Source: Rhizobium indicum (lineage in GTDB: Bacteria; Pseudomonadota; Alphaproteobacteria; Rhizobiales; Rhizobiaceae). Taken from it: a stretch of 64,000 bases of DNA. The notes beneath the pieces are model-generated. The model did no database searches. It was not told where the DNA came from and saw only the letters and a list, made by a program, of their open reading frames with translations. The position numbers were made by a program, and so were the translations under genes. Every line of letters starts with the position of its first letter. The first letter of the stretch is position 1. The stretch lies in assembly GCF_005862305.2 (NCBI RefSeq), contig NZ_CP054023.1, positions 124,001-188,000 of the forward strand, given 5' to 3'. This document shows positions 34,640-36,463 of the stretch, one piece after another.

Positions 34640-34814
34640 GTTTGGTGTCAACAGGTTTGTCGGTGCTTGCTTGAGCAGACGCAAGGCCCGCAAGAGCACG
34701 AAAGAAAATCTGGGAATAGACAGGAGAATTTCTGGAAATGATGACGCCATCATCCAAGCAATGGATCGCAAGCGGCTGTTCTTGGCGCGATCCAGCGGTG
34801 CTATCGGCCAAAAC

Positions 34815-34970
34815 GAAAAAGCCTGCCGCGGGAGGAGGTGCGGCAGGCTTTCGTAAAAAACCGAACGACAGCTGGGAGGAGGAGTGCTGTCATTCCACAG
34901 ACGACCCTGGGAGGAGGATGGGGCGCCTGTACATCGAAGGGATGCGGGAGGAGGTGCATCGCTTCGATAG
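34815..34970 (-). ncRNA. sRNA made of four anti-Shine-Dalgarno hairpins (alpha-r14/cuckoo/CcsR type)
   Basis: Read on the minus strand, four consecutive stem-loops each expose CCTCCTCCC: stems ATCGAAG+GATGC (34968-34933), ACAG+CG+CCC (34930-34897), GACAGC (34891-34867) and AGCCTGCCGC (34849-34820). The last has a perfect 10-bp stem followed by TTTTTCG and is a terminator. A TATGAT -10 lies at 34981-34976, and a conserved box is centred about 50 bp before the likely start. Known relatives are the CcsR RNAs of Rhodobacter and the alpha-r14 (NfeR1) RNAs of rhizobia, whose CCUCCUCCC loops can pair with ribosome binding sites. Confidence 0.85.
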
Positions 34971-34975
34971 AAATA

Positions 34976-35029
34976 ATCATACTTATTTTTTGCTCAGTTG
35001 ATAGGCACTTCTTTGCAGGGCAGCTATGC
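34976..35029 (-). promoter_or_regulatory. Promoter and conserved box (copy 2 of 3) of the anti-SD sRNA
   Basis: On the minus strand GCATAGCTGCCCTGCA (35029-35014) is followed 32 bp later by a TATGAT -10 (34981-34976). The -35 region is poor, as expected for an activator-dependent promoter. Transcription would start at about 34970, directly at the first hairpin. Confidence 0.55.
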
Positions 35030-35080
35030 GTTATGCGAAAAGCGGGAGGCTCGATCACGTGGTCCATCTGCCGGAAGCAC

Positions 35081-35116
35081 AAAAGCAAAGCGCCCGCTCG
35101 GGAGGAAGCAGGCGCT
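35081..35116 (-). terminator. Terminator of the DUF1127 gene with an anti-SD loop (fifth hairpin)
   Basis: On the minus strand AGCGCC+GCT pairs with AGC+GGCGCT (35116-35089), one mismatch, with loop TCCTCCCG, followed by TTGCTTTTG. It lies 37 bp after the DUF1127 stop. It may yield a separate 3'UTR-derived sRNA, as in Rhodobacter. Confidence 0.75.
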
Positions 35117-35152
35117 GGCATAGTCTTTGAAGATGCTTGATCTAAGCTGCCG

Positions 35153-35299
35153 TTAGCGGGCGATGGCTGCGCGGGCGACGTTGCGGATTTCGCTGCGGCC
35201 GATGCCGAGGTCGTCCAGTTCGCGTGCGGACATACGACCCAGTTCAGCGACCGTCTGACGGTACTTGCGCCAGTTATTGAAAGAGCGTGCTACGTTCAT
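35153..35299 (-). CDS. DUF1127 small protein (CcaF1/YjiS-like)
   Basis: A 48-residue arginine-rich protein. The pattern NNWRKYRQTVAELGRMSARE followed by LDDLGIGRSEI is the whole DUF1127 domain. ATG 35299 follows AAAGGGG. In Rhodobacter the DUF1127 protein CcaF1 is an RNA-binding protein encoded immediately upstream of the CcsR anti-SD sRNAs and involved in their maturation. In Agrobacterium such proteins affect carbon and phosphate metabolism. The same gene order here strongly suggests a related function. Confidence 0.9.
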   Translation of the reverse strand: MNVARSFNNWRKYRQTVAELGRMSARELDDLGIGRSEIRNVARAAIAR

Positions 35300-35371
35300 G
35301 ATGATCCCCTTTCGTGGGCTTTCGAAGCTTAGCTGCCAGTCCTTGGCGCTTCGTTCGCTTCGATGAGCTGT

Positions 35372-35425
35372 ATATAGTATGGGACATCTGATTATTGCAG
35401 CGCCAATGCATCACTGCACCTATGC
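35372..35425 (-). promoter_or_regulatory. DUF1127 promoter and conserved box (copy 3 of 3)
   Basis: On the minus strand the box GCATAGGTGCAGTGATGCA (35425-35407) precedes CTGCAA (35400-35395), a 17-bp spacer and CTATAT (35377-35372), which is the rhizobial -10 consensus. The 5' leader would be about 65 nt. Confidence 0.6.
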
Positions 35426-35482
35426 GGCGATTGCATGGGTCGCCATATCTTGCAGCGGATCAGGATCCGAACCGCTTCGCGA

Positions 35483-36463
35483 TCAGAGTTTGAAACGATC
35501 GAAGGCCGTCAGCCGCACGATCGGCGGCTCCGCCTCGGCCCAGCGGTAAATATCCGAGCGCAGATAGGAAAGTTCGTCGCCGAGATCCTCTTCGCCGACT
35601 TCGATCCACCAGGACTTCAAGCGGCCGTCGCTGCCGTCCGACCAGCGGTAACCCCTCGCCTTCAGATGATCCTTCATCTCGAACGGGCTGTGTTCGGCAA
35701 AGATACGGATGCGCGAGCGCTGGCTGGCGCGGTAAAGCTCGGTGAACGGGCTTTCACCGTTGCGCTGCTCTCGATCGAGGATTTCCAGGAGTGCGTGGCA
35801 GTCGTCCACGGCGCGATGGCCTTCGTGGAAATATCCGGCCTGGCCGACGAGATAACCGAGCTTCGTACCCTCGAAGCCGCGGGCGCTCCAATCGATCTCC
35901 GAAACGGAGCATGCCCAGGCTTTGCCGGTGAAAATCTTCGAGAAGGCCTCGCAGAACGGCCGGTCGAAACCGGCATTGTGGGCAATGATCAGATCCGCCG
36001 GCTCGATCAGAGTTCTCAGCGATTGGATATCGATGAGCTGTCCTTCGACCATCGCATCGGTGATACCAGTCAGGCGGGTGATGTCCGGCGGGATCGGCCG
36101 GGACGGCTGTTGCAGGCCGCCGTAAATGCCGACGATATCGCCGATTGCGCCGTCATCGTCGAAGGTAAAGGCGACGGCGCCGATTTCGATGATCTCGTCG
36201 CTGCGGTGGTTGAGACCTGTGGTCTCGGTATCGAGAATGACGCCGAGCCGCGAAAACCCCGGCTGTCTGACTGACGCAATCGGCCGGGCGGCCAGTTTTC
36301 TCAAGATGCGATAGTTGCCGCTCTCTTCGAGCGCCCGCGCCATGTCTTCATCGGAGTGAACGACCGGCTGCGATGGCCGCCGGTGCGATGGACCGCGTGC
36401 CTTGGCAATCGCGGGCGATGCCTTGGCAAACATGTCGAGTTGCGAATCTCTGTGCACGCTCAT
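35483..36463 (-). CDS. 3'-5' exonuclease (DnaQ-like), stand-alone
   Basis: A 326-residue protein. The DEDDh domain spans about residues 70-245: Exo I VILDTETTGL, Exo II AHNAGFDRPF, Exo IIIh HRAVDDCHALLEIL, all ligands present. The C-terminal 80 residues (RSRIRIFAEHSPFEMKDHLK) form an extra domain seen in proteins annotated as DNA polymerase III epsilon-like. It is probably a DNA repair or processing exonuclease and not the replicative proofreader. Monocistronic. Confidence 0.85.
   Translation of the reverse strand: MSVHRDSQLDMFAKASPAIAKARGPSHRRPSQPVVHSDEDMARALEESGNYRILRKLAARPIASVRQPGFSRLGVILDTETTGLNHRSDEIIEIGAVAFTFDDDGAIGDIVGIYGGLQQPSRPIPPDITRLTGITDAMVEGQLIDIQSLRTLIEPADLIIAHNAGFDRPFCEAFSKIFTGKAWACSVSEIDWSARGFEGTKLGYLVGQAGYFHEGHRAVDDCHALLEILDREQRNGESPFTELYRASQRSRIRIFAEHSPFEMKDHLKARGYRWSDGSDGRLKSWWIEVGEEDLGDELSYLRSDIYRWAEAEPPIVRLTAFDRFKL

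Follow-up and report, generated by a model that had tools for sequence, protein, structure and literature searches.

A plasmid-borne four-hairpin alpha-r14 sRNA and its DUF1127 neighbor as predicted members of an LsrB/VtlR regulon

The window, i.e., the whole 64-kb stretch of DNA analyzed here, carries a DUF1127 gene followed by a four-hairpin RNA. The observation of these two elements is confirmed, and they are mostly ordinary and well conserved. Judged by sequence, the RNA is the published four-hairpin form of alpha-r14 (SmelA099 type). We consider it highly probable that LsrB (VtlR) activates both units and that the RNA represses mRNAs by masking ribosome-binding sites, with ntrB as a likely target. 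The combination of RNA and DUF1127 gene is of a known kind. As far as sequence tells, what is mildly new is the adjacent pair found in this clade, with an LsrB-type box and a terminator for each of the two units. The conserved site thus places, by prediction, a plasmid-borne four-hairpin anti-Shine-Dalgarno (aSD) sRNA and its DUF1127 neighbor in the LsrB/VtlR regulon.

Table 1. Features of the locus and of the second sRNA of the window (positions in the window).
Feature	Position	Strand	Basis and remarks
TGCA-N6-GCAT, exact, overlapping the DUF1127 box	35435-35422	-	runs into GCATAGGTGCAGT
LsrB/VtlR-type box GCATAGGTGCAGT upstream of DUF1127	35425-35413	-	fits GCAT-N3-TG-N3-T
-10-like CTATAT, DUF1127 promoter	35377-35372	-	sequence; putative start near 35365
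DUF1127 small protein, 48 aa	35299-35153	-	Pfam PF06568, E 6.4e-17
DUF1127 intrinsic terminator, 6-nt loop CCTCCC	35116-35089	-	hairpin/terminator scan
LsrB/VtlR-type box GCATAGCTGCCCT upstream of sRNA	35029-35017	-	fits GCAT-N3-TG-N3-T; preceding TGCA half degenerate
-10-like TATGAT, sRNA promoter	34981-34976	-	sequence; putative start near 34969
Four-hairpin alpha-r14 sRNA (SmelA099 type), ~155 nt, predicted transcript	34969-34815	-	RF02344, fold z -8.2, covariation
Hairpin 1, CCUCCUCCC loop 34954-34946	34969-34932	-	fold; hardly overlaps the Rfam ar14 match
Hairpin 2, loop 34917-34909	34931-34896	-	fold; 8/11 pairs changed on both sides
Hairpin 3, loop 34882-34874, then UUUUUU	34895-34863	-	fold; 7/10 pairs changed on both sides
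Hairpin 4, U-rich end, loop 34838-34830	34852-34817	-	fold; 100% of cells paired, 8/13 pairs invariant
Alpha-r15 (AbcR-type) sRNA, plasmid-borne	27391-27281	-	RF02345, 103.9 bits; box 27452-27440

The four-hairpin RNA and its family

The 156-nt stretch 34970-34815 folds at -69.4 kcal/mol into four hairpins with CCUCCUCCC in each loop, which bears out the preliminary description of four aSD loops in one RNA, a predicted one. The motif CCTCCTCCC has four sites in the window, all inside the four-hairpin RNA at the loop positions of Table 1. Shuffled windows held 0.80 sites on average, and none (0/100) reached four. Two hairpins of the locus had been described as ending in terminators. The DUF1127 hairpin and hairpin 4 are indeed terminator-like, and the count could be three because hairpin 3 is directly followed by UUUUUU as well (34860-34855, minus strand). 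A shorter, three-hairpin product may arise at this U tract.

The alpha-r14 covariance search suggested earlier passed the gathering score of the Rfam model RF02344 (102.1 vs 58.8 bits, match 34936-34814), and the proposed kinship with the cuckoo/CcsR/alpha-r14 group holds. The traits of alpha-r14 are present, namely CCUCCUCCC-exposing hairpins and variable stems, with four hairpins instead of three. Alpha-r14 is reported as the family of S. meliloti NfeR1, an RNA with three hairpins (PMC7143759, PMC10746234). NfeR1 and the window RNA share the aSD loops and an LsrB-type box, whereas the window RNA has an extra 5' hairpin ahead of the Rfam match. The RF02344 model covers three hairpins, and in the four-hairpin copies seen the match starts after the first loop. 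In practical terms, the Rfam ar14 model omits hairpin 1 of four-hairpin RNAs.

The fusion of four loops in one RNA had been taken for a different architecture. This form is already in the literature, where RFMSmelA075 and RFMSmelA099 are described with three and four CCUCCUCCC hairpins, respectively, and with R. leguminosarum relatives (PMC3927594). An alignment of the window RNA with the SmelA099 locus on pSymA of S. meliloti 1021 (coordinates as reported in PMC7143759) spans the four hairpins and includes the box, and membership in the four-hairpin form is taken from this alignment. Loop spacing is 37, 36 and 46 nt in SmelA099 vs 37, 35 and 44 nt in the window, the last hairpin is alike, and the distance from the GCAT-N3-TG-N3-T box to the first loop is 74 vs 75 nt. 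The stem sequences differ between the two RNAs. In S. meliloti 1021, a motif search of about 2 kb around SmelA099 found no DUF1127 gene. The pSymA locus of S. medicae and the pT173a locus of Ensifer canadensis contain both DUF1127 and four loops.

Conservation and covariation

A DNA search of the genus returned a match in 80/80 genomes, counting that of the window, with locus coverage varying between matches. Seventy loci were chosen from the better matches, with more than one from some genomes and with the window's own among them, and the DUF1127 gene is followed by an array of CCTCC loops in 69/70. Exactly four CCTCC loops were counted by a chain rule in 66 loci, with an extra CCTCC further on in 3, and a few loops deviate from a perfect CCTCCTCCC. 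In the alignment of 66 sequences (65 distinct), paired cells make up 93.7%, and 21/47 pairs have changed on both sides. Controls with slid partners pair in 35.5-53.2% of cells, and none of the five measures was reached by any shuffle (0/500); these counts are not probabilities because the structure is the window's own fold, i.e., that of an aligned sequence, and many sequences are close kin. Covariation resides mostly in helices 2 and 3, and helix 4 is almost invariant. Pairing is poorest in helix 1 (84.7% of cells), where several outer and inner pairs are broken in many relatives. A loss of both loops and compensatory stem changes among relatives, which the preliminary description had named as the outcome that would speak against it, did not occur.

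Hairpin 4 and the DUF1127 hairpin do look like terminators, and the array could be read as repeated terminator-like hairpins without any function in trans. Such a reading is extremely improbable given loops that are nearly fixed over stems that covary across the genus, boxes kept at each promoter, and a DUF1127 terminator loop that, by contrast, drifts. The conservation of four near-identical loops while the stem sequences change could also point to a sponge, an array that sequesters a C-rich RNA-binding protein, or that competes with the 16S rRNA for ribosome-binding sites at large, instead of acting on chosen mRNAs. We regard a sponge as very unlikely. The NfeR1 motifs are reported to repress individual mRNAs, on the evidence of reporter assays and a mutated loop (PMC10746234). 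The protein sequestration raised in the preliminary description gains evidence neither for nor against from the sequence analysis. Repression of chosen mRNAs by the loops remains the preferred reading.

The DUF1127 gene, its terminator and leader

A 48-residue DUF1127 protein had been claimed on the minus strand, and the encoded product matches PF06568 with 61.4 bits against a gathering score of 23.3. Five hairpins with aSD loops had been counted. The four loops of the RNA stand and the fifth hairpin does carry CCTCCC in its loop, but its place in the array does not hold. CCTCCC lies within the DUF1127 terminator stretch in just 24/69 loci, so the loop drifts, and a fifth array member is ruled out. 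A terminator-like stem after DUF1127 is kept in the relatives shown. Because the CCTCCC of the fifth loop is not generally conserved, the array is best described as four hairpins plus a terminator. An additional CCTCCC occurs at 35049-35044, where folding is no stronger than in shuffled sequences (z -0.6).

The DUF1127 leader (35300-35370, minus strand) is strongly conserved among the closer relatives of the window and differs in more distant loci. Its last 70 nt can fold at -21.3 kcal/mol. No clear common fold emerged that would indicate a structured regulator, with an alifold energy of only -6.7 kcal/mol over 67 distinct sequences. A similar AUCGAAGCGA opens both the DUF1127 mRNA and the sRNA.

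Promoters and LsrB/VtlR-type boxes

The two units have box cores of one type, GCATAGGTGC at 35425-35416 upstream of DUF1127 and GCATAGCTGC at 35029-35020 upstream of the sRNA. Exact GCATAGSTGC occurs at 3 sites in the window, these two and 27452-27443 before the alpha-r15 RNA, against 0.18 expected, and three sites were reached in 0/100 shuffles. The earlier statement that both units share an upstream box is therefore well founded. GCAT-N3-TG-N3-T, the reported VtlR/LsrB consensus (PMC7486931, PMC8844928), precedes DUF1127 in 67/69 loci and the RNA likewise in 67/69, the window included, compared with means of 1.3 and 1.2 in shuffled promoters; 2/69 loci lack a match at each promoter. The GCAT of both boxes lies ~45 nt before a TAT-containing -10 and ~60 nt before the putative start. 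The abcR1 promoter is reported to have its box at -61 to -49 (PMC8844928). For NfeR1 the LsrB motif is expected near -72 to -57, and the sRNA of the window has an exact GCAT-N3-TG-N3-T from about -60 of its putative start. The motif described for the NfeR1 promoter, TGCA-N6-GCAT (PMC10746234), is exact at DUF1127 and has 2 mismatches at the sRNA, in the first half. When up to 3 mismatches are allowed, the longer box TGCA-N6-GCAT-N-GS-TGC has 53 sites in the window vs 54.8 expected; only the tighter core is enriched.

Promoters and start points were inferred from the boxes and the -10-like sequences. Columns conserved to at least 90% among 30 aligned loci include TATAT in the DUF1127 -10 and TAT in the sRNA -10. 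Of the sigma-70 signature of NfeR1, CTTAGAC-N17-CTATAT, the sRNA promoter shows a TATGAT-like -10 alone and no clear -35, and a generic sigma-70 scan of 34700-35500 returned zero promoters on the minus strand. The terminator after DUF1127 and the second boxed promoter nevertheless agree with the view that the units are separately promoted.

In the whole genome, GCATRGSTGCNNTG has 11 sites vs 3 for the reversed control, and 3/11 are those of the window. Several of the remaining sites may be due to chance, because only one of the 8 outside the window (on C4) precedes an aSD array. At G000:C1:3992575 (L120), a box-like GCATGGCTGCTATG lies about 100 nt upstream of a potential ORF start.

Proposed regulation and targets

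We suggest that LsrB would bind GCAT-N3-TG-N3-T ~60 nt upstream of each start and activate both neighboring units. The DUF1127 mRNA would stop at its own terminator, and the ~155-nt alpha-r14 sRNA would be transcribed separately. Acting in trans, the CCUCCUCCC loops would pair with the ribosome-binding sites of target mRNAs and block translation, the four loops probably being largely redundant. Sequence, fold, covariation, loop conservation and boxes come from the present analysis. The NfeR1 work in S. meliloti contributes LsrB activation, masking of ribosome-binding sites and loop redundancy: LsrB is reported to bind and activate the NfeR1 promoter (PMC10746234), and NfeR1 is described as an Hfq-independent RNA with three redundant aSD loops that silence two ABC-transporter mRNAs and ntrB (PMC10746234, PMC7143759). 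For the window copy we infer transcription, LsrB binding at both boxes and the target set. Because the RNA is homologous to NfeR1, it should cover ribosome-binding sites, and the binding of such sites by the loops proposed in the preliminary description is likely by this homology.

The target check covered one published target, ntrB, which would be a good candidate here too. The gene was named by its position between dusB and ntrC (dusB-ntrB-ntrC), with NR(II) as the best NCBIfam model at 193 bits vs a cut-off of 240. The start region of this putative ntrB has GGGAGG before the start. Its predicted duplex with a loop has -17.8 kcal/mol, barely beyond the 1% point (-17.3 kcal/mol) in a background of 2000 segments from the window. 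The DUF1127 mRNA was also considered as a target of the adjoining RNA, which is unsupported because its duplex, at -8.5 kcal/mol, sits near the background median of -9.1.

VtlR is reported to activate small DUF1127-type genes and AbcR sRNAs (PMC7486931, PMC12595884). The VtlR/LsrB regulon of Brucella, Agrobacterium and Sinorhizobium thus resembles the present case in its box type and in having AbcR-type sRNAs, NfeR1 and small DUF1127 genes among its targets (PMC7486931, PMC12595884, PMC10746234, PMC8844928). Unlike here, the DUF1127 targets and NfeR1 come from different species in these reports, which are not known to describe them as an adjacent pair. The literature does link DUF1127 with LsrB/VtlR. 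Among the papers surveyed, none joins DUF1127 with NfeR1 or SmelA099 and none was seen to state the twin-boxed adjacent pair, and the pairing may already be described in cuckoo or CcaF1 work.

Comparison with CcaF1-CcsR and arrangements across the family

The locus had been interpreted as a CcaF1-CcsR-like system, in which the DUF1127 protein binds the adjoining hairpin RNA and guides the processing or turnover of that RNA. CcaF1 of R. sphaeroides is reported as a DUF1127 RNA-binding protein co-transcribed with the CcsR RNAs (PMC10253847). The likeness with CcaF1-CcsR1-4 and with 'CIN1' loci extends to a DUF1127 gene adjoining CCUCCUCCC-type hairpins and to a weak match of the CcsR1 model RF02791 (E 2.2e-6). 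The one box type common to both units of the window also speaks for such a pair. The RF02791 match scores 33.9 bits vs a gathering score of 65.3, though, and the one-operon layout is absent. CcaF1-CcsR forms one processed transcript from an RpoHI/HII promoter, as described in PMC10253847, in contrast to the two units found here, where a terminator and separate boxed promoters stand between DUF1127 and the RNA. A common DUF1127-sRNA transcript thus finds no backing in the sequence, and read-through is possible. Because the SmelA099 locus aligns and RF02791 falls short, we assign the window RNA to alpha-r14 in the SmelA099 form, related to CcsR but not filed there.

Alpha-r14 matches occur in 97/101 genomes of the family (91 over the cut-off) and DUF1127 in 96/101. 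We read closely 29 family loci (L047-L075), those returned for the best hits, one of them from the same genus. They hold alpha-r14 RNAs fused behind DUF1127, before DUF1127, or without DUF1127 and then mostly boxed. DUF1127 lies within 1.5 kb of the ar14 RNA in 20/29 loci, directly upstream in 8 and downstream in 12, which favors a link between protein and RNA. None of these 20 loci has an exact box in the 200 nt preceding the RNA. Nine loci are without DUF1127 within 1.5 kb. An exact box occurs in 6 of them, placed relative to the Rfam start at -56/-57 in copies with three hairpins or at -95/-96 in those with four; the other three comprise one with a match to the pattern at -40 and two without a box. 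The distance from the DUF1127 stop to the first CCTCC is 27-57 nt in the 8 fused loci. By raw count, a box within 170 nt before DUF1127 is exact in 4/8 and has one mismatch in the other 4/8; among the latter, the one in L061 looks like chance. The fused-type DUF1127 proteins are just 50-65% identical to that of the window, and most of the 8 start with a MNLIRNYRNWRRYR-like sequence. Descent of the window locus from a fused ancestral operon that later split is unsupported, because the fused DUF1127 proteins differ at their start and show this level of identity, pairwise comparisons only.

Seven alpha-r14 RNAs of the genome score above the cut-off, and one more is weak. Four-loop copies are those of the window, C4:40969 (L003) and C2:1045846 (L005). 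No DUF1127 lies within 1.5 kb of L003 and L005, and the exact box is absent at L005. The missing DUF1127 neighbor at these two paralogues and at SmelA099, within about 1.5-2 kb, speaks against a CcaF1-CcsR-like pair, as does the divergence of the fused DUF1127 proteins. DUF1127 proteins also differ in their reported roles, since that of Agrobacterium acts on PhoR (PMC12501420) and Salmonella YjiS is reported to show no RNA binding (PMC11707872). Overall, we judge a CcaF1-CcsR-like pair unlikely and prefer two LsrB-activated units with an RNA acting on ribosome-binding sites. A chromosomal locus, L004 (G000:C1:588040-591158), has an alpha-r14 RNA, a DUF1127 gene and a second DUF1127 gene in this order, with GCATAGGTGATCT upstream of the first DUF1127.

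Whether the Hfq-independent NfeR1 has a chaperone is treated as an open question in PMC10746234. DUF1127 is a concrete candidate for such a chaperone because it is repeatedly linked to alpha-r14 RNAs. Small DUF1127 proteins might then be the missing RNA partner of Hfq-independent aSD sRNAs. LsrB would induce both, in other genera as a fused transcript and in this clade as two boxed units, and the arginine-rich protein might protect, mature or deliver the loops to target ribosome-binding sites. We consider this extended proposal unlikely.

Genomic setting and the alpha-r15 RNA

Sequences matching the locus are found on plasmids of the Rhizobium leguminosarum complex. Some part of the 801-bp locus query is matched by 429 plasmid records, and the best-ranked one has 96.9% identity over the whole query. 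On pRL11 of R. johnstonii 3841, where the locus lies at 574359-575156, the annotated neighbors are the same, i.e., a 3'-5' exonuclease, DUF1127, kduI and kduD. The pRL11 gene table is uninformative on the RNA because it holds zero RNA genes. NCBIfam models confirmed the exonuclease and kduI in the window.

The alpha-r15 RNA of the window is one of four copies in the genome, of which two stand in tandem on C1 adjoining a LysR-family gene. The tandem pair, the LysR-family gene and a thioredoxin reductase gene lie side by side. The same arrangement has been reported for vtlR and abcR1/2 (PMC7486931), and by analogy the LysR-family gene next to the tandem alpha-r15 copies is a candidate lsrB/vtlR.
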